A DNA stretch of 64,000 bases from Roseburia sp. 499 (GTDB taxonomy: Bacteria; Bacillota; Clostridia; Lachnospirales; Lachnospiraceae), in the NCBI RefSeq assembly GCF_001940225.2, contig NZ_CP135164.1, forward strand, positions 930,001-994,000. Direction: 5' to 3'. The notes under the pieces were generated by a model, which ran no database searches, was not told the DNA's origin, and saw nothing but the letters and a program-made list of their open reading frames with translations. A program made the position numbers and the translations under genes. Numbering within the stretch: position 1 is the first letter of the stretch; each line of letters begins with the position of its first letter. Below are positions 10,663 to 30,501 of the stretch, piece after piece.

Positions 10663-11130
10663 ATGGGGAAAGATAGTATTAAGTTGATTGCCAATAATAA
10701 AAAGGCATTTCATGATTATTTTATTGAAGATAAGTATGAAGCTGGTATCAGCCTTGCCGGTACGGAGGTAAAGTCTCTCCGTATGGGCAAGTGCTCCGTA
10801 AAGGAATCCTTCATAAGAATTGAGAAGGGCGAGGTTATTATTTACGGAATGCATATCAGTCCCTATGAAAAGGGAAATATTTTTAACAAAGATCCATTGC
10901 GTCCAAGAAAACTGTTATTGCATAAGCATGAGATTAATAAAATAGCAGGAAAAATGGCGGAAAAAGGTTATACAGTAGTGCCATTGCAGGTATACTTCAA
11001 GGGGAGCCTGGTAAAAGTAGAGATTGCATTGGCAAGAGGAAAGAAATTGTATGATAAGCGTCAGGATATTGCCAAAAAGGATCAGAGAAGAGAATCAGAG
11101 CGGGAGTTTAAGGTCAAAAACTTATATTAA
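10663..11130 (+). CDS. smpB: SsrA-binding protein SmpB
   Basis: A 155-residue tmRNA partner needed for ribosome rescue. Seen: the beta-barrel with [13 protein letters not shown], the [11 protein letters not shown] segment, and the C-terminal basic tail [17 protein letters not shown] that enters the empty mRNA channel. It sits 9 bases after rnr. Its RNA partner ssrA is not next door as in most Firmicutes but 34.7 kb downstream, past the whole secretion locus. Confidence 0.97.
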
Positions 11131-13528: not shown

Positions 13529-16500
13529 ATGAAGGAACAGAATTATAAATTAATTTTATTTGGGACAAAAATATACCAGGAAATTGTATTGTATGGAAAA
13601 AATAAGGATGGAGTATGTATAGGTACCACAAAGAACTGTAATGTGCGATTTAGCCGTGACAGTTTTTTTGATGATTTTGAAATTCTGGTTACACCACAAG
13701 GGAGAGAATGGAAACTGGTGTGTAGCGATTCCGTGTATTTCATCTCAGAAGGTTTGATGAAGCAGTCTGCCATGACCTTAAAGCATGGAGCGGAAATTGT
13801 TTTAAAATATCAAAGTAGCAATGCAGAATTGATGAAGGTTTCTTTTTATATCGATTTTGATAACATGTACAGCGATTTCGAACGTGTATTGGAAATACCG
13901 GAGCAGGAGAGTATTACTATTGGTGGAAAGCCATTTTGCAATATCCATATTCAAGATGATTTGGTGGAAGAAGATACAATTGCATTGGTAAAAAGTAATG
14001 GGGATTATATCCTGAAGGATACCGGAGCAAGATACGGTGTTTATGTAAATGGATTCCGTATGGAAGAAAAGGAACGGAAAGTGTATGATATGGATTTCTT
14101 TATGCTGGATGGATATTCCTTTTATATACGCAATTCAAAGCTGTTTACCACTAATGCAGAGACCATACAGGTCAATGGAATGAAGGAAAAGGATGTCTCT
14201 AAAACAGGAAATCAGCTCATGTATCCTAAGTTTCAGAGAAGTACCAGAGTAAAGTATATTGTGCCGGAAGATGAGATAGAAGTATTGGCACCGAAGGCAA
14301 AAAAAGAAGTGCCGAAAAAAAATCTTGTAATGACGTTAATTCCGGCATTGCTATCTATGGTGTTGATGGTATTTTTACGTGGAGCCATGGGTGGTGGTGG
14401 AATGTTCGTTATTTACAGCGCTGCCATGATGGGAATGGGAATTGCTACATCAATCGTTACATATTTCATGGATGGAAAAGAGTACCGGACGGAGATAAAG
14501 GAAAGAAGAAAAGAATATCTTCAGTATGCGCAGGATAAAGAAAAAGAAATTAAGGAAATTCGAAAAAAGGAATTAAGAATTCTGGATCAAAAGTATATTT
14601 CTATTGATCGGGAAATCGAGGAAGTGGAACAATTTGACAGCAGATTGTTTGAAAAAGACGTTGAAGATGATGACTATCTGACTATCCGAATCGGAACAGG
14701 AACGGTAGAGTCAAATAGTCAGGTTTCGTATAAAAAACAGGAATTCAAGGATACAGAAGATGATTTAAGCGAGTATCCGGAAAAATTGGCAGATGCCTAT
14801 CGGTATATCGAAAACGCTCCGGTCTGCATTGATTTAAAGGAGAATAATTGTGTCGGAATTGTAGGAACTCCTCAGGTGCAGTATGAGATACTGAAAAATA
14901 TTACCATTGATTTATCCGTGCGCCATTTTTATCATGATGTAAAGTTTTATTATTTGTTCAATGAAAAGGAGCAGGAAAAATATACATGGTTACGCTGGCT
15001 TCATAATGTAAAAAGTGGGGTCGGAAACATTCGAAATTTCATGTATGATGAAGAGAGTAGAAAAATCATTTTAGAGGTTTTGTATGAAGAATTATCTTCC
15101 AGAGAAGGATTGAAGGAAGAAGAATTAAAACATCTGCCTCATTATGTGGTGTTTGTTACAGATGCAGAAGGATTGGCACAGCATCCGGTATCTAAGTATG
15201 TGGAAGAGTGTGGAAAGTACGGATTTAACTTTTTGTTCTTTGAAGAATATGAAGAATTATTGCCAAAGGGATGCGACCGAATTCTGAAAATGGAGAATGA
15301 TTTTGCCACAGGTGTGATGGTAACTTCTGAGAATGGAGAAGAAAAGCAGCCATTTCATTATCATACCATTCCAAATCGTGTGGCAGAGAATCTGGCATTA
15401 CGGTTGGGGTGCGTTTATGTAGACGAAGTGAGCTTGGAAAGCAGCCTGACGAAGAGTATTTCATTATATGAGTTGTTGGGAATCATCAATATTGATAACT
15501 TAGATATTGCATCCAGATGGCAGGAATCTAAAGTCTATGAGAGTATGGCAGCGCCTCTTGGCGTGAAAAGTGGTGATGAGGTGGTATGCCTTGACTTGAA
15601 TGAAAAGCATCATGGACCCCATGGACTGGTAGCGGGTACCACAGGTTCCGGTAAGAGTGAGATTTTGCAAAGTTATATTTTATCTATGGCAACCTTGTTC
15701 CATCCTTATGAAGTAGGATTTGTAATCATCGACTTTAAGGGCGGTGGTATGGTAAATCAGTTTAAGGAACTTCCACATTTGATTGGTGCAATTACCAATA
15801 TTGACGGAAGGGAAATTGACCGTTCCCTGCTCTCTATTAAGGCAGAACTGCGAAAAAGACAGGAATTATTTGCAGAGTATAATGTAAATCATATTGATGC
15901 TTATATTAAGAAGTTCAAGGCAGGAGAGACCTCTATTGCATTGCCTCATTTGATATTGATTGTAGATGAATTTGCAGAGTTAAAGAGTGACCAGCCGGAA
16001 TTTATGAAAGAGTTAATCAGTGCGGCGCGTATTGGTCGAAGCCTTGGTGTACATTTGATATTGGCAACACAGAAGCCATCCGGTGTAGTAGATGATCAGA
16101 TTTGGAGTAACTCTAAGTTCAAGCTTTGTCTGAAGGTGCAGAACAAAGAGGACAGTAACGAAGTATTGAAGTCGCCATTAGCAGCAGAAATTAAGGAGCC
16201 GGGACGTGCTTATCTTCAAGTGGGAAATAATGAAATATTCGATTTGTTTCAGTCTGCGTACAGTGGTGCAGCAGCGGACCAGAGCCAGGTGGATATCGTA
16301 AAGGAATTTTCCGTTAGTGATGTAAATCTTCTGGGAAAGAGCCAGGTGATTTTCCAACAGAAGAATCCAAAGTCCGAAAAGTCCGCTACTCAGTTGGAAG
16401 CAATCGTAGAATATGTGGCGAAATATTGCGCTGATAATAAGATAGAGCGGTTGCCGGGAATCTGTCTGCCATCACTGGGTGAAGTGATAGATTATTGTCA

Positions 16501-18085
16501 GTGTGAACCGAATTTTGAAATTGAGACAGATATAGGTGTTGTGATTGGTATTTACGATGCTCCGGAGCAACAGTTACAGAAGGAGACCTTTATAAATTTT
16601 TCGCAGGAAAACATTTTTGCAGTGGGTTCATCACAGTATGGAAAGACCAATTTATTGCAGGTATTAATTAAGGGACTGGCGATGAATTATACTCCGGACG
16701 AAGTCAATATTTATATTTTGGACTTTGCATCTATGATTCTGAAGACATTCGAAGGATTGAATCATGTGGGTGGAGTCATTACTTCTTCTGAGGATGAAAA
16801 GCTGAAGAACTTCTTTAAAATGATGAATGAGGAAATTTATCGCAGAAAAGATATGTTGTCACAAATGGGAATTAGTTCCTTTAGTTCCTATCGTGATGCC
16901 GGATATCGGGAACTGCCTCAGATTGTAATTATGGTAGATAATCTTACAGCATTGAAGGAATTATATCTTCAGGATAATGATAATTTACTGCTGATTTGTC
17001 GTGAAGGTCTGGCAGTAGGTATTTGTGTTGTAGTAGTAAATGCACAGACCACCGGAATTGGTTATAAGTATTTAGCGAATTTCTCAAAAAGAATTGCTTT
17101 ATATTGTAATGACTCCTGTGAGTATAACAGTGTGCTGGATCATTGTCGTATGCAGCCAAGAAATGTACCGGGACGTGGAATTATCGATATTGATAAGTCT
17201 TTATATGAGTATCAGACATATCTTGCGTTTAAAGGAAGAAAAGAGATTGAACGTGTAGAAGAAATGAAATCATTTATGGCAGAGGTAAATGCTAAAAGTA
17301 AAGCTAGGGCAAAACGGATTCCTGAAATTCCGGCAGTATTGGATTGCAATTATGTTGCAGAGCAGTATCCGGAAATAGCCCAAAAGGCATATCAGGTCAT
17401 GATTGGTTTAAATTACAGTACCATTATGCCGGTAGTATTGGATATCCGTACGCTCGGTGTACTTGGAATTGTTGGAAAAGAAAAATCGGGACGTGGAAAC
17501 TTTGTTCGTTATTTATTGCATACATTGCAGAAGAACAGTCAAAATGCACCGGTTAAGGTTGTTATTATTGATGATGTTTCAAAGAAATTCGCAGATTTAG
17601 CAGAAATGGAAATGATAGAGAAGTATACTATGGATGCGAATTATATTGGAGAAGCATTGACGTTGTGGGAAGAGGAACTGAGAAATCGCTATGAAGCAAT
17701 GGTGGCAGGTGATGATCAGATACTTGAACAGGCACCGTTACTTCTTTTGATAATTCAGAATATGGATGCTTTGGATATCTTGCAGAATAATCTGGCATGG
17801 ATGGATTTGTACAAGAATATTACAGGAAAATTGAAGGCTATGAAGGTAGCAATCTTACTTTCGAATGTACCAAATGCTAATATTTCCTATTCTTCACCGG
17901 AACCATTGAAAAATATAAAGGATAGCAAGCATATGTTGATTTTTGATGAAATACCAAATCAAAAAGTACTGGATATCCCGATGTCTATTGCAAGAGAATA
18001 TAAGAAAAAGTTGGAAGTGGGTGAGGGATTCTATTGTAAGGAGAATGAAGTAATTAAGATAAAAAGTGTGTTGGATTGTGAGTAA
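13529..18085 (+). CDS. essC: EssC-type FtsK/SpoIIIE ATPase, T7SS motor
   Basis: A 1518-residue membrane motor that recognises and exports WXG100/LXG cargo. Two N-terminal FHA-like domains (about 1-110 and 125-215) lack the S-x-x-H and Arg of phospho-peptide binders, as known for EssC. Two membrane helices lie at about residues 265-310, followed by a coiled, charged linker. Three ATPase domains follow: D1 with an intact Walker A GTTGSGKS near residue 703 and Walker B LILIVDEFAEL near 809; D2 with GSSQYGKT near 1031 and IVIMVDNL; D3 with degenerate GKEKSGRG near 1311 and a weak Walker B. This gradient of decay from D1 to D3 is typical of EssC. A GGGGAAGAAA site precedes the ATG. Confidence 0.95.
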   Translation: MKEQNYKLILFGTKIYQEIVLYGKNKDGVCIGTTKNCNVRFSRDSFFDDFEILVTPQGREWKLVCSDSVYFISEGLMKQSAMTLKHGAEIVLKYQSSNAELMKVSFYIDFDNMYSDFERVLEIPEQESITIGGKPFCNIHIQDDLVEEDTIALVKSNGDYILKDTGARYGVYVNGFRMEEKERKVYDMDFFMLDGYSFYIRNSKLFTTNAETIQVNGMKEKDVSKTGNQLMYPKFQRSTRVKYIVPEDEIEVLAPKAKKEVPKKNLVMTLIPALLSMVLMVFLRGAMGGGGMFVIYSAAMMGMGIATSIVTYFMDGKEYRTEIKERRKEYLQYAQDKEKEIKEIRKKELRILDQKYISIDREIEEVEQFDSRLFEKDVEDDDYLTIRIGTGTVESNSQVSYKKQEFKDTEDDLSEYPEKLADAYRYIENAPVCIDLKENNCVGIVGTPQVQYEILKNITIDLSVRHFYHDVKFYYLFNEKEQEKYTWLRWLHNVKSGVGNIRNFMYDEESRKIILEVLYEELSSREGLKEEELKHLPHYVVFVTDAEGLAQHPVSKYVEECGKYGFNFLFFEEYEELLPKGCDRILKMENDFATGVMVTSENGEEKQPFHYHTIPNRVAENLALRLGCVYVDEVSLESSLTKSISLYELLGIINIDNLDIASRWQESKVYESMAAPLGVKSGDEVVCLDLNEKHHGPHGLVAGTTGSGKSEILQSYILSMATLFHPYEVGFVIIDFKGGGMVNQFKELPHLIGAITNIDGREIDRSLLSIKAELRKRQELFAEYNVNHIDAYIKKFKAGETSIALPHLILIVDEFAELKSDQPEFMKELISAARIGRSLGVHLILATQKPSGVVDDQIWSNSKFKLCLKVQNKEDSNEVLKSPLAAEIKEPGRAYLQVGNNEIFDLFQSAYSGAAADQSQVDIVKEFSVSDVNLLGKSQVIFQQKNPKSEKSATQLEAIVEYVAKYCADNKIERLPGICLPSLGEVIDYCQCEPNFEIETDIGVVIGIYDAPEQQLQKETFINFSQENIFAVGSSQYGKTNLLQVLIKGLAMNYTPDEVNIYILDFASMILKTFEGLNHVGGVITSSEDEKLKNFFKMMNEEIYRRKDMLSQMGISSFSSYRDAGYRELPQIVIMVDNLTALKELYLQDNDNLLLICREGLAVGICVVVVNAQTTGIGYKYLANFSKRIALYCNDSCEYNSVLDHCRMQPRNVPGRGIIDIDKSLYEYQTYLAFKGRKEIERVEEMKSFMAEVNAKSKARAKRIPEIPAVLDCNYVAEQYPEIAQKAYQVMIGLNYSTIMPVVLDIRTLGVLGIVGKEKSGRGNFVRYLLHTLQKNSQNAPVKVVIIDDVSKKFADLAEMEMIEKYTMDANYIGEALTLWEEELRNRYEAMVAGDDQILEQAPLLLLIIQNMDALDILQNNLAWMDLYKNITGKLKAMKVAILLSNVPNANISYSSPEPLKNIKDSKHMLIFDEIPNQKVLDIPMSIAREYKKKLEVGEGFYCKENEVIKIKSVLDCE

Positions 18086-18115
18086 AACAAGATTTACAAA
18101 AATTGGAAAAAGTAG

Positions 18116-18144
18116 TTGACTTTATTGGAGTGAAGTAGTATACT
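18116..18144 (+). promoter_or_regulatory. Promoter of the WXG100 gene
   Basis: TTGACT at 18116-18121, 17-base spacer, TATACT at 18139-18144. It leaves a leader of about 220 bases before the start codon. Confidence 0.8.
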
Positions 18145-18187
18145 TGACCTTGGAGTTGAGAGGGACGAGTTGCGATAATGAAAGGCT

Positions 18188-18238
18188 AGGGGTAGTCATT
18201 CATGGTTTATCATTCGATAAGCAACTATTTCAGTAAAA
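18188..18238 (+). promoter_or_regulatory. Leader element shared with the surface-protein operon (copy 1)
   Basis: Begins AGGGG and contains a 7-bp hairpin GTTTATC-ATTC-GATAAGC (18205-18222) followed by CAACTATTTCAGTAAAA. Bases 18205-18238 match 33982-34015 at 31 of 34 positions. Two of the three differences fall in the stem and keep pairing through G-U pairs. It lies in the transcribed leader about 60 bases after the -10 box, so it probably acts as RNA. I do not recognise it as a known riboswitch. Confidence 0.65.
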
Positions 18239-18371
18239 TATCCGAGTAGGTAATTAAAAGTTAATTGCATATTGTTAGATTAAATTACCGAGAATAGGTA
18301 TATCTATGTTTGTAGTTATGCTTATGCGTAGGGGTTTAATATATATTATAATTTTTAAGGAGGAAAAAACA

Positions 18372-18668
18372 ATGAGTAATGGTCAGATTAGAATTACACC
18401 TGACACAATGAGACAGCGTGCATCACAGTATGATGCTGAAGCAGCAAACGTAGGTGAGGTAATCTCAAAAATGAACACTTTGTTAACAACATTGCAGGAA
18501 GAATGGGAAGGTGCTGCTAGCCAGTCCTATGCAGAGAGATTCATAGAATTAAGACCTAACTTTGAAAAAGCACAGGCACTTATTACTGAAATCGCAAATG
18601 CATTAAGAGCTACTGCACAGACAATTGAAACAACAGATTCTGACATCGCTAGTCAGTTTAAAGGCTAG
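18372..18668 (+). CDS. esxA: WXG100 family protein (EsxA-like)
   Basis: 98 residues, the helical-hairpin WXG100 fold, with W-E-G at residues 45-47 in the turn. It begins SNGQIRITPDTMR and ends TDSDIASQFKG. WXG100 proteins are exported as dimers and are needed for T7SS function. The ATG at 18372 follows AAGGAGG at 8 bases; an in-frame upstream ATG at 18306 has no ribosome site and would fall in the leader. It has its own promoter and terminator, so it is expressed apart from the flanking core genes, as expected for an abundant substrate. Confidence 0.95.
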   Translation: MSNGQIRITPDTMRQRASQYDAEAANVGEVISKMNTLLTTLQEEWEGAASQSYAERFIELRPNFEKAQALITEIANALRATAQTIETTDSDIASQFKG

Positions 18669-18680
18669 ATAGGTGACAAA

Positions 18681-18713
18681 AGCCTCTTAATGAAAATTAA
18701 GAGGCTTTTTCTT
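18681..18713 (+). terminator. Terminator after the WXG100 gene
   Basis: An 11-base perfect stem AGCCTCTTAAT / ATTAAGAGGCT with loop GAAA and a TTTTTCTT tail. Downstream core genes would need read-through or an unseen promoter. Confidence 0.9.
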
Positions 18714-18749
18714 AACATAAGAAAGAATTTTTTTCGGGCAGGTGAGAGC

Positions 18750-20501
18750 ATGAAGTGCAGAGTATGTGGAAGTGAAATAGAGAATCAAATATATTGTCCT
18801 ATGTGCGGAGCAACAGTGAATCCGCAGCAAGAAGTACAGGAACAGCAGCAAGAACAGGCAGATTATTCCTACAAGTATCAGGGAATAGATGCAGATGCTA
18901 CGACTGTTTTATCTGTGAATAATATTGAAAATGAAAAAGAAGAAAAGGAAAATGACGAAGAAGAGAAATGTGTGGTATCTGCAGAAGTAGAATTACCGCG
19001 GAAGAGTCACAAGAAACTGATTATAATATTGAGTATTATAGCAACAGTTTTGATGGTGGCGGGTATCGCAGTTTTTTGTTATTTTCATTACATATATCCA
19101 AACAAAATTGCTTACATGGAAAAGGAACTTTATTTTGTCAATAAGGGAGCAATTGAAAGTAGTAGCGGAGCGAAGGTAAAGAAACCGGATGGTTCGTATA
19201 CACTAATACAGGCAGATTACGAGAAAAATGCATTTTTATATGCCGGAGAAGATGGGAAAAGCCTGGTAATAGCAGGAGAAAAAGAGAATTTAAAAGCGTC
19301 TAAGGATAAGCAAATCGTAGCGGTAATCGCAGATGAGGCACTGTCTAAGGTGTATTATTGGACACAAGAGGAAGAAAACTTTTATTCTTTACATTGTATG
19401 GGAGAAGAGGATACCATAAAAAGATATGTTACAGGAGTAAATGGAACCGTAATCAGTGAGAAAGGGAATTATTTGGCGTATTCCTATCAGGCGGGGGAAG
19501 ATGCATATGTGGTTTGTGAGGTTATGCCTTCCGGTGAGGTAAATCAGATTGCAACCATGGAGAATCCTGTCAGGGTTCTGGGCGTAACAGAAGAAGGAAA
19601 GGTATTTTGTGAGCAGCAAAACCCGGCAAATACGAGGACCGAAGAAGGGGAAGAACCGGAACTTACCTATACGATTTATTGTATTCAGGATAAAAAGAAT
19701 TATGGAAGTGACCTGTCAATGGTTACTTATTTTGGCTATTACAGTAATTTAAATTCCTTCTGTATACAGACTGCGGATAAGTCTGTTTATTATTTCGATA
19801 TGAAGGAAGAAGGAAAAGAACAGTTAGTAGCAACCAATGTAGACTGGTTTACCGATGTCTCAGAGCCGTGTACATATGAGAAGTCTTGTGACAGACAGGT
19901 GATTTTTGGTAACAGTATGGATAGAAATTTCGAGAATACATCCCCATGTTACTATTATCTAAAGGAAAATTGTATGTATAGCTACGATATATTAAATGAT
20001 CAGGAATCATGCAAAGTAGCAGGAAATTTTGGAAGAGCACAGAAGATAGAAATGTGGAATAGCAATCTGATTTTTTATTTAGCTGGGGATAAACTTTATA
20101 GTTGTGAGAAATTAGATGAGGAATGGCAGGAACCAAAGCTTTTGGCAAAGGAATGTACAGATTATAAGTATTCTCCGGAGCAGGACTGTGTGTACTATTT
20201 GACGGATGAAACACTTTATTCTTATGGTGATGGAAAGGAAGAAAAGATTTCTGATAAGGTGAAGAGTTTTGACCTGAATCCAGAGGAAGAAAGATTAGCT
20301 TATAACACGGATACAAGTATTGTAATATACGAGAAAGAGGAAGAAGAATATGCAGTAAAGTCTCAGGGACAGATATTTGTGATTGGTCAGGACGTATATT
20401 ATACAGATGATAAAAATAATTTGTATCAGTTATTGAGTGAAACAGGAGAAACACAGAAGGTTACAGACGGGATAGAATCCGTAGGGTACATTTGGAAATA
20501 G
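18750..20501 (+). CDS. Zinc-ribbon, single-pass membrane protein of the T7SS locus
   Basis: 583 residues from the ATG at 18750, chosen because CAGGTGAG lies upstream and the protein then opens with the zinc ribbon (C3, C6, C16, C19: CRVC and CPMC). An acidic, Gln/Glu-rich linker follows that contains TTVL at 51-54, then basic residues and one membrane helix (about 89-112), then a ~470-residue outside domain rich in Y/W-containing beta repeats, suggestive of a propeller. I do not recognise a named family. Position between the WXG100 gene and the FHA/phosphatase/kinase genes suggests a machine component or sensor; the cytosolic TTVL could be a phospho-acceptor for the neighbouring FHA proteins. 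Confidence 0.65.
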   Translation: MKCRVCGSEIENQIYCPMCGATVNPQQEVQEQQQEQADYSYKYQGIDADATTVLSVNNIENEKEEKENDEEEKCVVSAEVELPRKSHKKLIIILSIIATVLMVAGIAVFCYFHYIYPNKIAYMEKELYFVNKGAIESSSGAKVKKPDGSYTLIQADYEKNAFLYAGEDGKSLVIAGEKENLKASKDKQIVAVIADEALSKVYYWTQEEENFYSLHCMGEEDTIKRYVTGVNGTVISEKGNYLAYSYQAGEDAYVVCEVMPSGEVNQIATMENPVRVLGVTEEGKVFCEQQNPANTRTEEGEEPELTYTIYCIQDKKNYGSDLSMVTYFGYYSNLNSFCIQTADKSVYYFDMKEEGKEQLVATNVDWFTDVSEPCTYEKSCDRQVIFGNSMDRNFENTSPCYYYLKENCMYSYDILNDQESCKVAGNFGRAQKIEMWNSNLIFYLAGDKLYSCEKLDEEWQEPKLLAKECTDYKYSPEQDCVYYLTDETLYSYGDGKEEKISDKVKSFDLNPEEERLAYNTDTSIVIYEKEEEEYAVKSQGQIFVIGQDVYYTDDKNNLYQLLSETGETQKVTDGIESVGYIWK

Positions 20502-20517
20502 AAAATGGAGGAAAGTC

Positions 20518-21687
20518 ATGGAAGAGATATTCGAGGTAAAAAATCATGGATTAGAGAATTTTTTAGTATATTGGGTGCAGGACAAACAGGCGATAGAGCC
20601 TAAAAGCGTTGAGATTATCAAGGGAATTCATTCTAATATTATTGAATCATTAGAAGAAATAGAAGAAGAGGAAAAGTATGGATTCCAGTATAATATTGCA
20701 TATAAAGCTACGCTACGCAAATATCTTATGCAAACTATGGGAAAAACGGAAGTGTTAAAGCTTCTAGAAACAGTCATTGAAGCATTTCAGTTTTTGAAGA
20801 ACAAAGGGATTGATGAGAAATATTTGTATTTAAATCTGGATTATATTTTTGTTGATTTTGTAACCAGAGATATTTCTTTTTTATGCATTCCGGAAAATAA
20901 GAAATTACCAGGTAATAAGAGTTTACGAGAGTTTTTGAAGGAACTGCTTATGAGTATTACCTATAAAGAAGAAGAGGATATTTACTATATTGCAAAACTG
21001 GTGTTGTATGTTTCCAATAATCCATATATTGAGGTGGAGAATTTTGAAGAACTGGTATTAAGTTTGAAAGAAACGAAAATTATACAGAGTCAGCCACAAG
21101 TAACTGTTTCAAATGCAGTACCGCTGGTGGCTCCGGTATCTGCTACACCGGTTATGCCGGCATTCACGGCGCCGGCAGCACCACGTCCAATGAGGGAGGA
21201 AACGGTACAAGGAAGCCAGCCGAAGCCAATTAAGCTGGAGGCTGCGAAACCTGCACCATCCGGAAGCCTTGCAGGTTCTCAAGAGATAGGGGAGCATGAT
21301 GAAACAACGGTATTAACTACACCGTCCGGAAATTTAAAAGAGCCATTGAAGACAAGAAAGGGACTGTTTCAAAGAGTATCGGATAAAAAACCGACGCAAG
21401 TGTTAATTCGTACGAAGAATCAAGAAAAAATTGTTATTAATAAAAATGTATTCCGTATTGGTAAATCAAAAACAGATACAGATTATACAGTGGAAGATAA
21501 TGTGGCAATCAGCCGAGTACATGCCGTTATCTATAAAAGAGATGGAGCTTGCTATATTCGGGATAATGATTCTACCAATAATACATATGTAAACGGAGTC
21601 ATTTTAAAGGGAGAAAAGGAACAACTTCTGATGAAGGGAATGAAGGTTTCCTTAGCAGACGAAGAATTTATATTTGATTTAGTATAG
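20518..21687 (+). CDS. EssB-like N-terminal domain fused to FHA domain
   Basis: 389 residues, no clear membrane helix. Residues 1 to about 190 resemble the DUF6382/EssB pseudokinase-like fold also seen in the protein at 11298. A Pro/Ala-rich linker (about 195-300) contains ETTVL at 262-266. About residues 300-389 form an FHA domain with R-I-G-K-S near its front, S-R-V-H and N-N-T-Y-V-N-G, so it keeps the phospho-threonine-binding set (Lys in place of the core Arg). A TTVL in its own linker next to an FHA domain recalls GarA-type self-binding. AATGGAGGAAAG precedes the ATG; the phosphatase gene follows 11 bases on. Confidence 0.75.
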   Translation: MEEIFEVKNHGLENFLVYWVQDKQAIEPKSVEIIKGIHSNIIESLEEIEEEEKYGFQYNIAYKATLRKYLMQTMGKTEVLKLLETVIEAFQFLKNKGIDEKYLYLNLDYIFVDFVTRDISFLCIPENKKLPGNKSLREFLKELLMSITYKEEEDIYYIAKLVLYVSNNPYIEVENFEELVLSLKETKIIQSQPQVTVSNAVPLVAPVSATPVMPAFTAPAAPRPMREETVQGSQPKPIKLEAAKPAPSGSLAGSQEIGEHDETTVLTTPSGNLKEPLKTRKGLFQRVSDKKPTQVLIRTKNQEKIVINKNVFRIGKSKTDTDYTVEDNVAISRVHAVIYKRDGACYIRDNDSTNNTYVNGVILKGEKEQLLMKGMKVSLADEEFIFDLV

Positions 21688-21698
21688 TAGGGAGAAAT

Positions 21699-22469
21699 AT
21701 GAGATATATTACAGCTTATGCAAGTGATGTTGGGATCAAAAAAGAGACAAATCAAGACGCTATATTGATAAAGAAAGCAAGGACAGCACAGGGAGAGATT
21801 CTCCTTGCCATTATCTGTGATGGTATGGGAGGGTTGGAAAAAGGAGAAGTAGCAAGCAAGGAAGTAATTGAGCGATTTTCCGGATGGTTTCATGAAGAAC
21901 TGCCGCAGATGCTGTATGAAGGATTCGACCAGAACAAGCTTCAGATGAGATGGAAAGAAATTGTGGTAGAAGAGAATCTGAGGATTGGTGAATTTGGGAA
22001 GAAGAATAATGTAAATCTGGGAACTACACTAACTGCATTACTTGTAATAGAGGACAGTTATTATGTAGTGCATGTAGGAGACAGCCGTATTTACGAATTA
22101 TCTGATATGTTGTATCAGATAACGGAAGATCAGACACTGGTAGCAAAGGAAATAGCAGCAGGTCGTCTGAGTGAGGAACAGGCGGAGACGGACCCGCGAA
22201 GGAGTGTTTTGTTACAGTGTATAGGAGCATCACAGACAGTGGAACCGGTGTTTTATCACGGAAAGATAAAAGAAGATGCGGTTTATATGTTGTGTTCAGA
22301 TGGATTACGTCATATGTGTACACCGATGGAAATGTGGAATTCTTTTTGCGCACAAGCCAATCCGGATGAAAAAGTTATGAAAAATAATATTTTAGAATTT
22401 ATTGAAATGTTGAAACAGAGACAGGAAAAAGACAATATAAGTTGTATATTAGTAAAAACGATAAGATAG
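21699..22469 (+). CDS. PP2C-family Ser/Thr protein phosphatase
   Basis: 256 residues, Stp/PrpC type, Mn/Mg-dependent. Metal and catalytic motifs: D20 in K-E-T-N-Q-D, IICDGMGG with D41, HVGDSRIY, QTLV and the CSDGLRHM and DNISCILV segments, in the usual order and spacing. It should remove phosphate from Ser/Thr in proteins phosphorylated by the partner kinase encoded 10 bases downstream. Pairing of PP2C and kinase genes is standard in Firmicutes; in this locus the likely targets are T7SS components. GTAGGGAGAAAT precedes the ATG. Confidence 0.93.
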   Translation: MRYITAYASDVGIKKETNQDAILIKKARTAQGEILLAIICDGMGGLEKGEVASKEVIERFSGWFHEELPQMLYEGFDQNKLQMRWKEIVVEENLRIGEFGKKNNVNLGTTLTALLVIEDSYYVVHVGDSRIYELSDMLYQITEDQTLVAKEIAAGRLSEEQAETDPRRSVLLQCIGASQTVEPVFYHGKIKEDAVYMLCSDGLRHMCTPMEMWNSFCAQANPDEKVMKNNILEFIEMLKQRQEKDNISCILVKTIR

Positions 22470-22479
22470 AGGGATTAGA

Positions 22480-24480
22480 ATGTCAAAAGTAGGTCTGGTA
22501 CTGGATGGAAAATACGAAATATTAAAAGAAATCGGTCAGGGTGGAATGAGCATTGTATATGTGGCAATGGATAACCGACTGAATAAACAATGGGCAGTAA
22601 AGGAATTAAAGAATGACGGCTCGCAGAGCGTAGAAATGCAGTTAAAGGGAATTGAGCGGGAAGCTAATATATTGAAAAAGGTAGACCATCCCGTATTGCC
22701 GAGAATTGTAGATATTATAGATAAAGACGGAACAATATATGTTGTCATGGATTATATTCAAGGATTGGCATTAGATCGTATTTTGAAGGAAGAAGGAGCA
22801 CAGCCGCAGGAAAATGTAATTGAGTGGGCAAAACAGTTGGCAAGTGCTTTGGATTATCTTCATTCCTTGAATCCGCCCATTATCTATCGTGATATGAAAC
22901 CCTCCAATATTATGTTGCAGCCGGACGGGTGAGTAAAGCTGATTGATTTTGGAACAGCAAAGGAATATAAAGTTGAAAATATTGCAGATACTACAGCTCT
23001 TGGAACCAGAGGCTATGCAGCTCCGGAACAGTTTGGGGATGAGCAGGGCCGAGGAATCTACAAAACGGATGCGAGAACAGATATTTATTGCCTAGGTGCA
23101 ACTATTTATCATATTGTAACAGGGAAAAATCCCTGTGAGCCTCCATATGTTATGCGTCCCATTCGGGAATGGAATCCGGCATTATCTAGTGGATTAGAAA
23201 AAATTATAGAAAAATGTACACAGCCAAATCCGGAAGATCGTTATCAAAACTGTTCTGAGTTAATTTACGCCTTAGAACATTATGATGAATTGGATAGTGG
23301 TCATCGTAAGAAGCAGACAGGAAAGTTGATGCTCTGGGGTGGAACCGTAGCTGCAATGGCAGTTAGTATCGTAATATCTGCATTGGGATATCAAGGAATT
23401 CAAAATACCAGAAAGCAGGATTATCGAAGTCTGATTGAAAAGGCGAATACATATAAAATAAATGGAGATTATTCCAAAGCATCGGAAGTATATGTAGAAG
23501 CAATTACAGATGTAGATGGAAAGAATCCGGAAGCATATTTGGATATGTTAAGCCTTTATGTGAATTATATGGATGCAGAAGAAGGACTGGAAAGAATTGG
23601 TGCATATATTAATTCCGGCTATCAGAATATTCAGGATAACAGTGAGGTAGTACGTCAGGTAGCATTGACGTATCTGAACGAGGAAAAAGATTATGCCAAC
23701 AGTTTATATTATTTTCAGATGTTGGATGAAGAAGAAGTGCCGGAAGCAGTATATTATAAGAAAATATTGTCATGTCTGTCTGAATTAGATGTTACAGGAA
23801 GCAATATGGAAGATTTAGCAGAGACAATGAAGGATTTTGAAACTTATAATGACAGTCAGACCCTATCTGAGGCGAAAATGCTTAACTACAAAATCATGGG
23901 CGATATTTACATGATATATCCAGGGTCCATAGAAGGAGCAGTAGAGTCTGCTATTCGAGTGGCTGATAAGGCATTGGAAGAAGTAGAAGATTTAGATAGT
24001 GATGAGATGCTTGTGGAATACACGGTTGATTTCAGTGATATTTTGTACAAGGCTTATAGAGAACGAGCAGAAGAAATAGAAGATAACACAGAGAAAAGTG
24101 AGAATTATAATTTAGCCATTACATATTGTGAAGAAATACTATCTATTATTTCAGATGATAATCAGGAAAAAGACCGTTGCAAATATATATGTGATGTTGC
24201 TGAAATGTATGAAGAAATCGGTGATTTGGAATCTGCCAAAGCAAAGTATGAAGTAGGAATTAAGGAATTTGGAAATAAATATAAGGATATTTATATTGGA
24301 TATTTATCCTTGTTGTGTAATGAAGCAGCAGCAAAGGACAGTAATATAGAAAATTGGAATCCGGATGCTATTTTTGCCATTTATGATCAGGGTATGCAGG
24401 TTGCAGATATTTCCAACGATATAAAATGGAAAAAATTAGTGCAGAAGCTAGGACCATTATTTCAAAAGTATGGGAGGTAA
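22480..24480 (+). pseudogene. PASTA-less Ser/Thr protein kinase with TPR-like tail, interrupted by in-frame TGA
   Basis: A Hanks-type kinase split by one TGA at 22930-22932. Before it: the Gly loop GQGGMS (19-24), K41 and E61 for ATP, and YRDMKPSN with catalytic D138. The same frame then continues without a break: VKLIDFG with the metal-binding Asp at about 156, the activation segment, APEQFG, a membrane helix (about 283-304) and a ~360-residue outside part with TPR-like helices. Read through, it would be 666 residues. TGA is used as a normal stop elsewhere in this window (for example rnc), so recoding to an amino acid is unlikely. CGA or GGA to TGA by one change would explain it. The front fragment (150 residues) lacks DFG and should be inactive. 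A sequencing error cannot be excluded. Confidence 0.85.
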
Positions 24481-24485
24481 AACAG

Positions 24486-24962
24486 ATGGCAAATGAAATT
24501 ATGTTCTATGGAGGAATTGCAGGTGCAGTTCTATTTGGAATAGGAGCTATCATCTTGTTTTTCGTTTTTCGTATTCATACTGTAATAGGAGAATTGACCG
24601 GAATTACAGCGAAAAGAAGTATTCGAAAGATTCAAAAAGAGGGATATGAAGGGCAGAGTAAGATTCGTGCTATTCGTGAGAATACAGATCAGATTGTGGC
24701 AAAGAGAGGTAGAACAACCGGAAGATTACAGCCAAAGACAAATAAGCAAATAGCTTTGGAAAAACCAAATATACATGATGAGACAGTTGTACTGAATCAG
24801 ACATTAGACGAACAGACAACAGTGCTGAACCAAGGAATAGACGAACAGACAACAGTGCTAAATCAAGGAATAGAGGAAGAAACAACAGTATTGCAACAGC
24901 CACAGATTCAGTTTGAGGTGGAGGAAGATGTGGTAGTGACGCATACGGAAGAGCGGATATAA
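24486..24962 (+). CDS. Small membrane protein with tandem TTVL repeats
   Basis: 158 residues from ATG 24486, with GGGAGG upstream; 5 bases after the kinase frame. One membrane helix at about residues 7-29, a basic segment, then four near-repeats at 98-139: DETVVLNQTL, DEQTTVLNQGI twice, EEETTVLQQP. The motif TTVL also occurs in the zinc-ribbon and FHA proteins of the locus. Acidic residues followed by paired Thr and hydrophobic residues resemble known bacterial phospho-acceptor sites that FHA domains read (GarA has E-T-T-S-V-F). I infer a membrane-tethered docking tail for FHA proteins; no family is recognised. Confidence 0.65.
   Translation: MANEIMFYGGIAGAVLFGIGAIILFFVFRIHTVIGELTGITAKRSIRKIQKEGYEGQSKIRAIRENTDQIVAKRGRTTGRLQPKTNKQIALEKPNIHDETVVLNQTLDEQTTVLNQGIDEQTTVLNQGIEEETTVLQQPQIQFEVEEDVVVTHTEERI
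24777..24902 (+). repeat. In-gene tandem repeat, 33-bp units
   Basis: Two nearly identical 33-bp units (24807-24839 and 24840-24872) flanked by two more diverged copies encode the TTVL array. Copy number could change by slippage. Confidence 0.75.
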
Positions 24963-24988
24963 ATTATTAGTATAAGAAAGGGGAAGTT

Positions 24989-25435
24989 ATGAGTAGAATT
25001 AAGCAATTGGAAACTGAGATTAGAGGGTATAAGAATAAGATTCAGGAATTACAGTCTGAAATTAAAAAGAATGAACAAAATTATGAATCATTAAGAATTT
25101 TTAAAGGGAATGTGGAAAAGTCATATGAAGAATTTAATAATGTAAATAATGCAAAGAAAAGCCAACTTACTGATATAGAGATGGTAAAAAAGAATAGTAT
25201 TACTGCTCAGAGGTATTATGATGGAATGAATAATATTTTGAATGGGATTGGAACTAAAACGGTTGTGGGGGCGTATTTGGGATTACTTTTTATGATTTCA
25301 GGTAAAATGCAAAGTTACATGAATAATATTAATTGTTGTGAGACGAAAATCAAAAGTTATAATGGGACAATTGCAGGTTTGGATATAGCTTTGCAGGATG
25401 CAAAAAATAATGAAAAACAGGGAGGAAATAAATAA
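24989..25435 (+). CDS. Coiled-coil DUF5082/YwqH-like T7SS accessory protein
   Basis: 148 residues, nearly all helical, with an N-terminal coiled coil starting MSRIKQLETEIRG and a short hydrophobic stretch near residues 85-100. The opening residues match the protein at 33076 (MSxIxQLExEIRG), so the two are paralogues, one per lipase module. Size and pattern fit the DUF5082/YwqH group that partners LXG-type cargo. GAAAGGGGAAGTT precedes the ATG. The next gene starts on the last base of its stop codon. A chaperone or targeting-factor role is inferred from context. Confidence 0.65.
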   Translation: MSRIKQLETEIRGYKNKIQELQSEIKKNEQNYESLRIFKGNVEKSYEEFNNVNNAKKSQLTDIEMVKKNSITAQRYYDGMNNILNGIGTKTVVGAYLGLLFMISGKMQSYMNNINCCETKIKSYNGTIAGLDIALQDAKNNEKQGGNK

Positions 25436-25767
25436 TGGGAAGGCATGTTGTTTATGACGAGAATGAGTTATCACTGGTAACCAATAGTATGGTAAATTAT
25501 GCAGAGTTTTTATCACGTTGTATTGAAGAATACATAACATTGCTTGACGATTTGCAAAGTAAGGGAATCCAAGATGAGGTAATTTGCTCAAAAATTGCAG
25601 ATTTAGAAACAACAATAAAATCATATAAAACCGTAATTTATGATGAGTGCCAAGATATTAGAACAAAAGTAAATAAGAGCATTGAGGAAATTGCATTAGA
25701 AGACGATTTTAGATTTCCGAGTGATATTACTTCTGTGGTAGGTTCTCTATTATCTATGTTTTTGTAA
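25435..25767 (+). CDS. Small helical protein of lipase module A
   Basis: 110 residues, predicted helical hairpin, with no signal peptide or membrane segment. No family recognised. Its start codon shares one base with the previous stop, so the two are translationally coupled. It sits among small helical genes ahead of the lipase, fitting the Lap/TlaA-like partners that pair with T7SS cargo; this is inference. Confidence 0.6.
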   Translation: MGRHVVYDENELSLVTNSMVNYAEFLSRCIEEYITLLDDLQSKGIQDEVICSKIADLETTIKSYKTVIYDECQDIRTKVNKSIEEIALEDDFRFPSDITSVVGSLLSMFL

Positions 25768-25783
25768 ATATAGGAGGTATACA

Positions 25784-26068
25784 ATGTCAACACAGGTAAA
25801 AGTAAATTTATCAGAATTAGAAAAAATAGAAGGAAAATTGTTATCTTTACAAAAGAGAATGACTAACCGGAAGGTGAGTGTGAACTTTGTAAATACCAAG
25901 GGAAGTGTAGCTGATGAAATGGTTAATGCAGCTTCAAAACTAAATGAAATAGGCACAACATTAACTACACTTATTACTAAAACCGGAAAAGTAGTAGAGA
26001 ACGCAAAAGTTTCATTTGAAGCTGTAGATGCAGAAATATCAAGGCTATTTGAATCAGGAGATGAATAA
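25784..26068 (+). CDS. Small helical YwqI/TlaA-like T7SS partner
   Basis: 94 residues. Starts STQVKVNLSELEKIEGKL and contains a long C-terminal helix ending EISRLFESGDE; the pattern (small WXG100-sized helical hairpin lacking WXG) matches the proteins at 33571 and 42186. AGGAGG lies 6 bases before the ATG. Such proteins bind the helical domain of the neighbouring cargo in known T7SSb systems. Confidence 0.65.
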   Translation: MSTQVKVNLSELEKIEGKLLSLQKRMTNRKVSVNFVNTKGSVADEMVNAASKLNEIGTTLTTLITKTGKVVENAKVSFEAVDAEISRLFESGDE

Positions 26069-26073
26069 AAGTC

Positions 26074-26841
26074 ATGAAAAGAATGAGAAAATTTATTATT
26101 TTAGGAATCATTGTAATAATTGGAATAGGAGTGTGCGGTTGTAATATGAAAAAAAATACGGACAATGCTAAGAAGTCAGAATTGGTTTTAAGTGAAAGAC
26201 AAAAAGAAATTTTGGAGGAGGCAGGCTTATCTACGAATCCGGAAGAACTGACATATTCCCAAAAAAAATCAATTGTGGCAATAGAAGAAATGCTCACAGC
26301 AGTAGAAAAGAAATATAATCGTTCATTTTCATATGATGGGTATGTTCAGAAAGGACCATTGGAGTATGAACATTTAATAGCATATCCTTCGGACGGAGAT
26401 CCTCAAACGGATAGTTTTGAAGTGAGAAAAGTAGAAGGTGAAAATGGAACGGAATATGAAGATGATTATATGTTAGTGGCAATAAGAGATGATTATACGG
26501 AATATGTAGAAGAGCTTATAGTTTCAAGTTTAGATAATGAACATATAAAAGTTTTTGCAGATATTTATACAACTGAATTAAGTGCTATTCCGACTGATAA
26601 AAAGGAATATAATGAAAATGTTAGTAGTTGGAAAGGGGTATTCATATATTGTTCAAATAACGATGAAATGTCAAGGGATACTGAAATAATACAACAGTTA
26701 CTGGAAAATGAGAATTTAAGATATGATTGTGATATTATCTTTTTGAAAGAGGATGTTATAGATAAACTTACAGAATATAATTATACAGAATATATAACTT
26801 CAGATTGTTACGTGAAAAAAGAAAAAATTAGAATTGATTAG
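26074..26841 (+). CDS. Lipoprotein, candidate immunity to lipase A
   Basis: 255 residues with a type II signal peptide: basic MKRMRK, hydrophobic core, lipobox GVCGC with the lipid-modified Cys near residue 23. The mature part opens ERQKEILEEAGLS and is distantly like the lipoprotein at 30502 (E-K-E-L-E-I-L-E-G-C-N-I-S), so they are paralogues. In Staphylococcus the T7SS lipase TslA is neutralised by the lipoprotein TilA encoded beside it; the same arrangement occurs here twice. An IS110-type element now separates this gene from its lipase. The 5-base gap after 25784-26068 indicates one operon. Confidence 0.7.
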   Translation: MKRMRKFIILGIIVIIGIGVCGCNMKKNTDNAKKSELVLSERQKEILEEAGLSTNPEELTYSQKKSIVAIEEMLTAVEKKYNRSFSYDGYVQKGPLEYEHLIAYPSDGDPQTDSFEVRKVEGENGTEYEDDYMLVAIRDDYTEYVEELIVSSLDNEHIKVFADIYTTELSAIPTDKKEYNENVSSWKGVFIYCSNNDEMSRDTEIIQQLLENENLRYDCDIIFLKEDVIDKLTEYNYTEYITSDCYVKKEKIRID

Positions 26842-26976
26842 GAGACCAGCTATGAAAAGTCAAGCATAAATTAGCTGGAAATTTCAAAATTCTTTTTATG
26901 GTAAAAATGGGTAACTTTAACAAAGCTCCCGAAAAGCCCTTTTTCAAAATCTACTATTGATTGATATACAGACCTC

Positions 26977-28146
26977 TTACTCGAGGTTAAATTCTACATT
27001 GTCAGTGAGCATCTTCCAGATGACTCTGACTAGCTTGCCGGCACAATGCCCAAGTGCATTGTAGTGAGACCGGCCTTCAGACCTCTTGGCATCATAATAA
27101 GCCTTGAAGGTTGCGTTGTTTCTAACAACGTTCCATGCTGCATTTACAAGGGCATATCGTAATACACGAGAGCCACGTTTGGACATACGAGTGGTTTTAG
27201 CCTGAAAGTTTCCAGACTGATAAACAGAAGGATCCAAACCAGCAAATGCTAGCAGTTTATTAGGATTGGAGAAACGGTGAATATCACCAATTTCACCAAG
27301 GATCATTCCACCATTGATATATCCGATACCAGGAATGGTCATGAGCACAGAATCATTGAATTTCATGATTTCTGTCATCTCAGCTTCAATCTTTTCTAAT
27401 TGACTATCCAGTAACTCGATTTGTTGAATGGTTTGAGTTATCTGAATAGATATAGCGCTGTCGTTAGCACCGACAGACTTCTGTGCTAGAACTCTTAATT
27501 CTTTGGCCTGCTCCTTTGTAAAGTGTCCGTGTGAGTTCACTTTGAGTAGATTTGCCAGATGAGTCATATGCATGGAAGCAATCTCTTTTGGAGAAGGTGC
27601 TTCTTTTAAAAGAGCATAGACAGCGTGTTGATGCAGACCAGATTTGAAGAAATACTGAATTTCCGGAAATACTTGATCAACATAGGTTGTCAGTTGGATT
27701 TTCAAGCGGGTTCGCTGTTTTATAGTTTTCTGTCTAAAGCGTCCCAAGGCCTTAAGATCCATCATATCGAGGTCATAGAAACTGAAGAATCTTAGGTTAT
27801 CCTGCATCATAAGAGTTTTAGCAATCACATATGTGTCGACCTTATCTGTCTTAGTTTTGCGAATGTTATTCTTTCGCATCTGACAAGTTTTGATGGGGTT
27901 CAACACACACACTTGGTAAAGCTCAGTAACAAGGTATCGAACAAGGTTGTCACCGTAGTGTGCCGTTGACTCAAGACCGATGATGATGCTGTTCTTGTCG
28001 AATGATTCGAGCTTAGAGATCAGCAGTTGGAAGCCATCAGCGTCGTTTGTGAATTTGAACGGCTCAAGAATTATTTCACCGTCGGAAGAAATCGCAGCGG
28101 CGAAATGGTTGAGTTTGGCAATATCAATGCCTACAAAAATTTTCAT
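26977..28146 (-). CDS. IS110-family transposase (DEDD recombinase)
   Basis: 389 residues from the ATG at 28146, where the protein opens [10 protein letters not shown], the RuvC-like start with the first catalytic Asp; GGGAGG lies upstream on the minus strand. [11 protein letters not shown] carries the family Glu, [11 protein letters not shown] the later Asp pair. The C-terminal Tnp2 domain has [20 protein letters not shown] and a Ser-rich R-M-S-K-R-G-S segment. Length and motifs are intact, so it may be active. Confidence 0.93.
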
Positions 28147-28149
28147 GAG

Positions 28150-28380
28150 GTTGTACCTCCCTTTCATAAAGTCTGATACCATGATGTCCACCATCGATTA
28201 TCATCGTAGACTTGATAGAAATAAGTACTCTGAGTGAAAAACACTTCGGTAACATCCAGCTGATAAACAATTCAGATAAAGGTAGTGGCAATACACTCCA
28301 GTAGAGTAGTCAAGCTACAGGGTAAAATCAAAAGTCCATAGTATCTGAATTGTATTAAACCATAAATATAGAAAAATGAA
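28150..28380 (-). ncRNA. Candidate IS110 bridge-RNA region
   Basis: IS110 elements encode a structured bridge RNA in the non-coding stretch upstream of the transposase. Here that stretch has no gene and holds an 11-bp perfect inverted repeat, ACAATTCAGAT at 28267-28277 and ATCTGAATTGT at 28343-28353, separated by 65 bases with further short helices. The placement is right for a bridge RNA read on the minus strand. Ends and fold are inferred. Confidence 0.45.
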
Positions 28381-28427
28381 AGGATAGTATGATTACTAGC
28401 TTCTAATTAATCATACAAGGTGGGAAA

Positions 28428-30140
28428 ATGGAATTAAGTGAAAGTGAATTGTGTATGTTGGAGCAACTATGTTATTTGAACAGAGATGTTGCCGCTGCAG
28501 CTGGAATAGAAGAAAAATTTGGCGGTATAAGGTTAATTGAGTCAGAGGGACAAGCTATAGAAGATATACTTGAAGTGTTTGATGAAACTGCTCTAGCGAA
28601 CCTCGAGGCACTAGGTGATGAAGAAGTTGGAGGTGCATGTGCAAGTGGCAAAGAATGGGCAGATATAATCAGATATATAAAATCGAGTAATTTAAAGGAT
28701 TTAGTTTTGACAGACACTATGGAAAATTCAAATGGAACGACTTTGGCATTATGTTTTGCAGAGACAGCAGATTCATCAGAGGCAATAGTGGCATTTAAAG
28801 GGACAACTGGCAAGCAGGAGTGGATTGATAATGTGGAAGGATTGAATATAGAGGAGACAAAACTCCAAAAAGAAGCATTGGATTTTATAGAGAGCCTTAA
28901 ATATACGAATATAACAGTAACAGGACATTCAAAAGGTGGAAATAAGGCTATGTATGTTGCAATTACATCAGATAAGGTGACACGATGTGTTGCATTTGAT
29001 GGACAAGGATTCTCACAGGAATTCATTAATAAGTATTGGGCTGAGATTCAGGCGAAAGGAAAAAATATTTCAAATTATTCATTGGCAACAGATTATGTAC
29101 ATGCATTATTGTTTCCGGTTCCTAATTCCAATCAGTTTTATTGTATTGGGTATGGAGTCGATAATATGAAGCAGCATCATAGTCCAAATTCTTTTTTTAT
29201 GCAAGATAATGGTGGAAATTTGTGGATAGATGAAAGTGGAAACATCATTATTAGAATAACAAAAGAAGAAGAGTCGATTACGATGTTGCATGAGTTTACC
29301 ACCTTTATAATGAATAACGCAGATGGGAAAGATGAAGAAAAGATCATTGAATATGTTTCTGGATTAGTGGCAATGGCATTTGGTGGTAGTGAAATCTCGA
29401 AACAAGAAATAATTGATTATGCTTTATCAGACCCAGATTCATTAGCACTTGTTTTGGCATATTTGGTCAAATATATGGATGTGTATGATTTAGATGCTGA
29501 TGATATCGACAAGTTATTAGAGACACTGGGATTAAATTCTTTGAATCAGTTGATTACAATAACGCAGTTTGAGTTTTTGGGAGATAAGTATAACCTTAAT
29601 GTAAATTTGGCCAATATACTAAATCTTATAAAACAGAATCTAACAGATGGAGATGATGATTGGATTATAAAAAGAATTTTGCCATTACTAAAAAGTTGGT
29701 TCTTTGATGATGTTGATATAGATGTGAGTGATTTATGGGAAAGAATCAATAGTAAAGTTAAAGCCATAGATACATCTGGAGGAAAAGATAACGCGAAAGT
29801 AAGGACAGGTAAAATTTATGATTTTTCGCAAAATGTATATGATACTTTAATGAGTACTATTTCAAAAATAGAGAATATATCTATTTCTCCTGTTGAATCA
29901 TGGTCAAGTTATGCAAGCGAAGAGTGGTATTCCCAGATTTTTGTTCCAATAGCAATAAGTGGAATAAGAGCATATTTTGATAAATTGTCAGAAACAAACT
30001 TAGAGTGTAAAAGACGTATAGATACAATATTTGAAAATGTGCTACAAACAGATTCAGATTATGCAAAAAAAATCACGGAAAACAATAATAACTTGGAAAC
30101 AATAAACAACAATTTGTTAGAAGGGATATTGGCGTCATAA
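28428..30140 (+). CDS. T7SS lipase effector A, reverse architecture (TslA-like)
   Basis: 570 residues without a signal peptide. The N-terminal half is an alpha/beta hydrolase of DUF2974 type: oxyanion segment FKGTTG, nucleophile elbow GHSKGG with Ser168, FDGQGFS, Asp in A-T-D-Y-V (about 222) and His in HHSPNS (about 251). The C-terminal third is helical with W/Y-rich WSSYASEEWY, resembling an LXG-like targeting domain placed at the end instead of the front. This reversed layout, with small helical partners and a lipoprotein next door, is the organisation of staphylococcal TslA, a phospholipase. GGTGGG lies before the ATG. The substrate here is inferred. Confidence 0.78.
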   Translation: MELSESELCMLEQLCYLNRDVAAAAGIEEKFGGIRLIESEGQAIEDILEVFDETALANLEALGDEEVGGACASGKEWADIIRYIKSSNLKDLVLTDTMENSNGTTLALCFAETADSSEAIVAFKGTTGKQEWIDNVEGLNIEETKLQKEALDFIESLKYTNITVTGHSKGGNKAMYVAITSDKVTRCVAFDGQGFSQEFINKYWAEIQAKGKNISNYSLATDYVHALLFPVPNSNQFYCIGYGVDNMKQHHSPNSFFMQDNGGNLWIDESGNIIIRITKEEESITMLHEFTTFIMNNADGKDEEKIIEYVSGLVAMAFGGSEISKQEIIDYALSDPDSLALVLAYLVKYMDVYDLDADDIDKLLETLGLNSLNQLITITQFEFLGDKYNLNVNLANILNLIKQNLTDGDDDWIIKRILPLLKSWFFDDVDIDVSDLWERINSKVKAIDTSGGKDNAKVRTGKIYDFSQNVYDTLMSTISKIENISISPVESWSSYASEEWYSQIFVPIAISGIRAYFDKLSETNLECKRRIDTIFENVLQTDSDYAKKITENNNNLETINNNLLEGILAS

Positions 30141-30196
30141 ATTGAGGAAAGGTCTGCCTATAAATATTATGGCATAGAAGAGGAGAAAAAAAGAAA

Positions 30197-30490
30197 ATGG
30201 CAAAAGCAGGAGGAAACGTTATCATTGTAGATAGTGAGTATGAAAGTTGTGCAGCAACAGTAAATTCCGTAATTGCTGAGGTAATAGAATTAGGGCAGAG
30301 TTTTTCAAAGGAATTATTGTATTTAACGGAAAACGGATTGCAAGACATGTTAATAGATAATGAAATTATTGATAAGTCTTCAAAAATATGTGCAGCTATG
30401 TTGAAATTAGAGGAAGCGGCTAAAGATGTGCCGGATTCTTTGAAAGCATTTTTAAGTGAAGCAGACGCAACAGATGCTTATTTATATTAA
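30197..30490 (+). CDS. Small helical T7SS-associated protein
   Basis: 97 residues, WXG100-sized, predicted helical hairpin without a WXG motif. It begins AKAGGNVIIVDSEYESC and ends EADATDAYLY. AAGAGGAGAAAAA precedes the ATG. Position directly after lipase A suggests a partner that binds the lipase C-terminal helices; function not demonstrated by sequence. Confidence 0.6.
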   Translation: MAKAGGNVIIVDSEYESCAATVNSVIAEVIELGQSFSKELLYLTENGLQDMLIDNEIIDKSSKICAAMLKLEEAAKDVPDSLKAFLSEADATDAYLY

Positions 30491-30501
30491 GGGGTGGAAA
30501 A

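Follow-up and report, generated by a model that had tools for sequence, protein, structure and literature searches.

Processive antitermination RNAs such as put of phage HK022 and EAR of Bacillus eps are structured leaders that carry neither a local terminator nor a helix masking the Shine-Dalgarno (SD) sequence, and put is located at the very start of its transcript. For dfn/mln of Bacillus velezensis, the excerpted account describes a 5' leader hairpin of the UNCG type that is required for read-through of downstream terminators by the NusG paralogue LoaP (PMC12691694). Here we report on a leader element that occurs twice within a stretch of 64,000 nucleotides from Roseburia sp. 499 (Lachnospiraceae; RefSeq assembly GCF_001940225.2, contig NZ_CP135164.1, positions 930,001 to 994,000 of the forward strand; this whole stretch is called the window), once in front of a WXG100 gene of a type VII secretion system (T7SS) and once in front of a row of genes that includes surface proteins. 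To our knowledge, the coordination of T7SS expression in commensal clostridia is largely open. On balance we consider it probable that the element acts in cis as a structured RNA in the 5' leader and labels the transcripts of a T7SS regulon in a handful of species from a single family.

The initial annotation had pointed to a match of 31 of 34 bases between positions 18205-18238 and 33982-34015, to a 7-bp stem with an ATTC loop in both, and to promoters with 17-bp spacers ahead of both. These observations were reproduced: the next-best ungapped partner of the first stretch within the window, on both strands, reaches 22/34; the stems read GTTTATC-ATTC-GATAAGC (copy 1) and GCTTATC-ATTC-GATAGGC (copy 2); and two of the three differences fall in the stem and keep its pairing (U-G to C-G and A-U to G-U). 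Promoter scans place TTGACT-17-TATACT (10/12) at 18116-18144 and TTGACA-17-TACAAT (11/12) at 33891-33919, on the plus strand like all features of the two copies given below; both rank among the best plus-strand candidates in 17900-34600, where promoter-like matches overall occur at chance level (67 vs 66.8 in shuffles). The 34-base match is the 3' part, about half, of a larger conserved unit of ~85 nt that has a closing helix and invariant unpaired bases. The AGGGG with which the element had been thought to begin is indeed present (at 18188, and at 33954 and 33963), and from these positions it is internal to the element rather than its start. Copy 1 extends from 18163 to 18243 (88.9 bits with covariance model R2, introduced below, with the model match at 18143-18246, and supported by pair counts) and comprises the closing helix P1 (GGA/UCC, 18163-18165 with 18241-18243), the covarying 7-bp hairpin P3 (18205-18222, loop AUUC at 18212-18215) and the unpaired stretch AUUUCAGUA (18227-18235, consensus NAUUCRGUA), recognised by column conservation. 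Copy 2 extends from 33949 to 34019 (R2 73.9 bits, model match 33922-34023, fold z -3.96), with P1 as GGAU/AUCC by eye and P3 at 33982-33999.

The covariance-model search that the initial annotation had proposed was run with three models (R1 from 14 copies, R2 from 33 copies, and the final R3) and recovered additional copies that precede T7SS genes in relatives. In total, 39 strong copies were found in four species: seven in the own genome (G000), 12 and 11 in two congeners (G271 and G256), and nine in a species of another genus of the same family (G056). Each of them scores at least 34 bits with R2 in the fetched loci, whereby 33 built this model and so match by construction; the remaining six are all from G056. 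BLAST with a 151-base stretch around copy 1 hit the own genome, a single contig of 3.38 Mb, at five places, and with another own copy it hit eight places in G271, two in G256 and none in the other 26 of the 29 genomes of the genus set, own genome included (E ≤ 0.001 in both cases). For the own genome, G271 and G256, R1 listed seven, 12 and ten places at E ≤ 0.01, with an eleventh G256 place (on C110) at E 0.83; R3 gave seven, 12 strong plus two weak (E 0.03, judged to be chance and not counted) and 11, the C110 place now reaching 59.7 bits, and had no match at E ≤ 0.5 in the other 26 genus genomes. The own-genome count was seven with all three models and includes both window copies. A scan of the family sample (397 genomes) with R1 pointed to G056, where R2 then gave the nine copies; the seven other genomes of that genus gave none with R2. 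Over the family sample R2 matched only G000 and G056 (8/9 copies) plus one chance place, and over the order sample (392 genomes) only G000 plus three single places near unrelated genes; these large scans used stricter filters, so that weak copies may have been missed. Not counted were chance matches of BLAST (G033, G243), R1 (G012, G276, G257) and R2 (G006, G727, G444, G600), a pattern match listed by no model (L009), and six viral contigs with at most 18.3 bits with R2; plasmids gave no blastn match to one copy of the element. EssC (TIGR03928) is above cut-off in 8/29 genus genomes, and the element is present in 3/8 of these and in 0/21 of the others. Judged from this distribution, the element is one lineage's way of marking T7SS units and is not universal.

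Pairing was assessed in a 39-copy alignment fitted to the model (A6), which therefore leans toward the structure. For P1, P3 and a further helix, P2a, taken together, 86.9% of the cells pair (shuffles 74.1 ± 0.9) and 78 cells carry a double change (shuffles 29.4 ± 3.9; slid controls 7 to 27). Because of this leaning, the test was repeated in a structure-blind MAFFT alignment of the bare sequences, in which three overlapping P3 windows lead with 24-29 double-change cells and the next stem has four. We also swapped the arms, cut by A6 columns, among 18 representatives of less than 75% identity, drawn from 37 of the 39 copies (L148 and one copy with a short 3' segment were left out). The own arms of P3 pair with -6.71 kcal/mol versus -2.79 for crossed arms (0/20000 permutations) and those of P1 with -4.19 versus -3.52 kcal/mol (p 0.0093). 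Across dissimilar copies, covariation is therefore clear for P3, moderate for P1 and not seen for P2a; on these alignments we regard the P3 hairpin as established and P1 as a likely closing helix. The P3 arms vary with pairing kept, often via G-U (TTATC/GATAA, CTGTC/GACAG, CTATG/CATAG, CTGCC/GGCAG), and several G056 copies show a C-C mismatch within P3 in A6; the loop appears as AUUC, GUUC, AAUC, AGUC or GGUC. When both genera are given the same weight, the only columns occupied by a single letter are the U and C of the P3 loop, the U, C and G of AUUC-GUA on the 3' side of P3, and one G within the purine run. A 3-bp hairpin around the invariant stretch (RCU/AGU) pairs in 98% of the cells, with covariation no more than in shuffles, and a helix spotted by hand in copy 2 (GAATTAG/CTAATTC) gave counts at shuffle level and was dropped. 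Compared with shuffles, the window copies fold with z -2.1 and -4.0, and L121 of G056 with z -3.0. By eye, an additional small hairpin with changing arms (CAGC/GCTG, CAGT/ACTG) lies ahead of P1 in L121, L122, L123 and L147-L151 of G056.

The genes behind the copies have one theme. Seven copies are at a contig end with nothing readable behind them, the break always lying downstream, at or just behind the leader (L059-L063 on C2, C14, C27, C4 and C25 of G271; L148 and L150 on C22 and C27 of G056); such breaks suggest repeated, near-identical effector genes behind several leaders. Among the 32 readable copies, 27 lead T7SS units, three of them by architecture only (L105, L108, L109), which amounts to a recurrent place upstream of one functional gene group. 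Four copies, one in each of the four species, belong to the core operon: L001, L064 and L107 precede the WXG100 gene behind essC, and L121 precedes a gene for an EsaA-like protein (TIGR03929, below cut-off) followed by WXG100 and EssC, both above cut-off. Twenty copies precede effector operons by Pfam family or homology, which include: a DUF5081/pre-toxin TG group (L002, L003, L100, L106, L111; in L003 two transposase-like ORFs separate leader and operon), a group with a colicin E5 domain in L101 (L101, L103, L104, L112, L113), DUF4176 operons (L066, L110, L122), LXG operons (L123, L147, L149, L151, L152), and L058, counted as an effector because 24 of its 29 readable residues are the same as at the N-terminus of the LXG protein in the window. 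The surface-protein copy, L004, was counted via its long gene row, which reaches DUF4176 and LXG; the count becomes 26/32 if this row is split. In the window this row, for which co-transcription is assumed, runs from 34189 to 44612 (Pfam/homology) and holds three paralogous surface proteins, a 1502-aa Ig-domain protein, DUF4176, YwqH-like and DUF5344-like genes (the latter below cut-off) and the LXG protein, with the DUF4176 gene starting 4 nt behind the 1502-aa gene. As its predicted genes run into DUF4176, YwqH-like and LXG, the "surface-protein" unit is itself part of the T7SS context. The proposed tie between WXG100 and surface-protein output is in this way supported, with regulation inferred, and refined, since what the copies have in common is the T7SS as a whole; the broader proposal of a new cis-regulatory RNA gained support from the copies in relatives, the covarying stem and the absence of an Rfam match. 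The first genes behind the copies are unrelated, so that the leader is common to them without the genes being copies of each other.

The element keeps a fixed distance to the promoter and a variable one to the start codon. A script picks a near-consensus promoter, TTGAC[AT] with 16-17 bp spacing, in 37/39 copies; for L103, where it chose another pair, TTGACT-17-TACACT is found by eye, and L114 has no convincing promoter site. With the predicted start set 7 nt downstream of the -10 box, the 3' end of the model match falls between +81 and +98 in the first genus (excluding L103 and L114) and between +108 and +115 in G056 (where L148 is cut by the contig end); P1 begins ~10 nt or ~17 nt past the start, respectively. 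The start codon follows ~18 to 165 nt after the element, some script picks being doubtful, and inspection of 30 leaders by eye found no recurrent terminator or SD-masking helix, a terminator-like hairpin being seen in L002 alone. Taken together, the fixed promoter distance, the variable start-codon distance, the missing local platform and the invariant single-stranded bases agree with reading of the RNA once transcription has initiated. In this model the P3 loop and the unpaired invariant bases of the nascent transcript would be recognised by a trans-acting factor, or by the elongating polymerase itself, and this recognition would change the fate of the transcript. As to how, control of read-through or elongation, of the processive-antitermination type, is our first choice, for which we see an appreciable if less than even chance; transcript stability comes second and is rather doubtful, and binding of a small ligand comes third and seems unlikely. 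In each of the four core loci (the window, G271, G256 and G056), the WXG100 gene is followed by a strong intrinsic terminator, and the machinery genes beyond it therefore need read-through or promoters of their own, which favours an antitermination-type role at the core loci. Such a leader RNA would probably help to switch the T7SS machinery, together with its possible toxin cargo, as one unit. That an undescribed RNA class switches this whole regulon, machinery and polymorphic toxins alike, after initiation, via a new factor of the antitermination type or via RNA polymerase directly, is a proposal that we put forward tentatively and hold to be somewhat doubtful.

Several observations weigh against this account of the element. 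Five copies do not precede recognisable T7SS genes: L005 and L065 precede small membrane proteins (the first gene of the L110 DUF4176 operon encodes a homologue of the one behind L065), L067 a 49-aa ORF, L102 an ORF6N protein and L114 small uncharacterised ORFs; and five T7SS-bearing genomes of the genus are without the element with R3. P1 was not recovered from the structure-blind MAFFT alignment (below the 75% filter), P2a (AGU../..ACU), good in fitted alignments, failed the arm swap among the 18 representatives (p 0.39) and was dropped from the claim, RNAalifold on A6 predicts five pairs, all of P3, and the folds of L104 and L112 hardly surpass those of shuffles (z about -1). In five of nine effector regions a terminator script found no terminator-like site, and in the other four no strong site within the effector unit; this speaks against antitermination being the only role. 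Furthermore, a LoaP-type factor above the NF033641 cut-off was found in 0/29 genus genomes (G056 lay outside this search); the weaker matches, at most one per genus genome, were taken as core NusG.

Among the other explanations, a rather doubtful one that survives best is a 5' stabiliser, in which the folded 5' end shields long T7SS mRNAs from 5'-end-dependent decay without any switch. The 5'-proximal fold at a fixed place, the strong promoters and the variable 3' spacing agree with it; on the other hand, the invariant unpaired bases exceed the needs of a plain stem, and docking of the ribosome 3' tail on the purine run (anti-SD pairing) is unsupported, as 1/39 copies falls below p 0.1 against shuffles (median p 0.41). 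We think it unlikely that the element is an orphan riboswitch whose small molecule- or ion-bound fold controls the T7SS units: the compactness and covariation of the fold and the invariant unpaired bases of its loop and 3' strand would suit it, while the inspected leaders lack a recurrent expression platform at their variable start-codon distances and the genes encode a secretion system and not metabolism or transport. A mobile promoter-leader cassette, spread by recombination and alike only because it is recent, would explain the multiple copies, the near identity of L059, L060 and L061 in G271 and the common spacer letters of several promoters, and is very improbable in view of the retention of P3 across representatives of less than 75% identity, the unrelated first genes, and the core-operon copy kept in four species of two genera. 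Of the RNA and protein-site readings left side by side by the initial annotation, the RNA reading stands by covariation, and a DNA operator, with the palindromic P3 (TTATC-N4-GATAA) bound by a repressor or activator at its fixed distance just past the promoter, is rejected as scarcely credible because the arms change jointly with pairing kept, often through G-U, whereas a protein site would keep its letters.

Around copy 1, the window contains essC, encoding the T7SS ATPase, just upstream (13529-18085; PF01580, TIGR03928 above cut-off), the WXG100 gene as the first gene downstream (18372-18668; PF06013), and directly 3' of it the intrinsic terminator (18679-18714), found with the terminator script and not listed by a simpler terminator scan. 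Between the element and the start codon, a second block (18278-18348, GATTAAATTACC ... GGTTTAATATATATT, with complementary ends) recurs in three species, in the core leaders L001, L064 and L107, and is perhaps a second regulatory structure. Behind copy 2, the three surface proteins (34189-36704) share nearly the same signal peptide and a C-terminal APKTGE motif, which we take to be sortase-like, and match no Pfam family. The T7SS island of ~34 kb (10663-46144) lies between smpB (10663-11130, PF01668) and the tmRNA gene (45799-46144); smpB and tmRNA genes are often adjacent, and a possible origin of the island is an insertion between these partner genes. The T7SS locus also holds two Mbeg1-like ORFs of the alpha/beta-hydrolase type (28428-30140 and 31369-33027), flanked by small helical ORFs, which are candidate lipase-type effectors, and an IS110-type transposase (26977-28194); a DDE transposase (6074-7810) is encoded upstream of the region.

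A common leader RNA defines the T7SS regulon at the sequence level and makes effector operons findable: by following the copies, we came upon LXG, DUF4176, pre-toxin-TG and colicin-E5 operons that lie far from the core locus. The leader is also a small, reporter-testable target for finding the regulator, and, if the proposed role is true, the antibacterial arsenal of these bacteria would be set by a single signal.

That the element resembles no known riboswitch, as the initial annotation had put it, agrees with Rfam, of which no family matches in the window or 11 other scanned loci; Rfam 15 (4227 families) at gathering scores gave no match to the element in the window or six loci, and at E up to 5 nothing overlapping it over L001-L005. 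Literature searches returned, among the matches listed, no T7SS leader RNA or RNA-level control of T7SS, and the T7SS/WXG100 matches with riboswitch (by title) or antitermination were mycobacterial. The main texts of PMC11109978, PMC8632094 and PMC2864571 contain no WXG, LXG, type VII or toxin, and that of PMC8040213 no WXG, LXG or type VII, an unnamed listing in their supplements being possible. The element resembles orphan riboswitch candidates in being a covarying leader RNA with a single gene-context theme, and is unlike them in that no expression platform was seen and in its context of a protein secretion system and toxins. With the LoaP leaders, as far as the excerpted account describes them, it has in common that long operons carry an RNA hairpin in their 5' leader, and it differs from their UNCG-type hairpin by a variable loop that is part of a larger element (PMC12691694), as well as by the lack of a LoaP above the family cut-off in the genus genomes. 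Covarying leader RNAs are known as a kind; as far as our searches reach, the novelty lies in this family, in its T7SS context and in the lack of a platform. The element differs from put and EAR in context and fold, and EAR was not reported by Rfam at the element; like these two, it is a structured leader without local terminator or SD masking, and like put it is predicted to be transcript-initial. Its predicted anatomy is compatible with a processive antitermination RNA.
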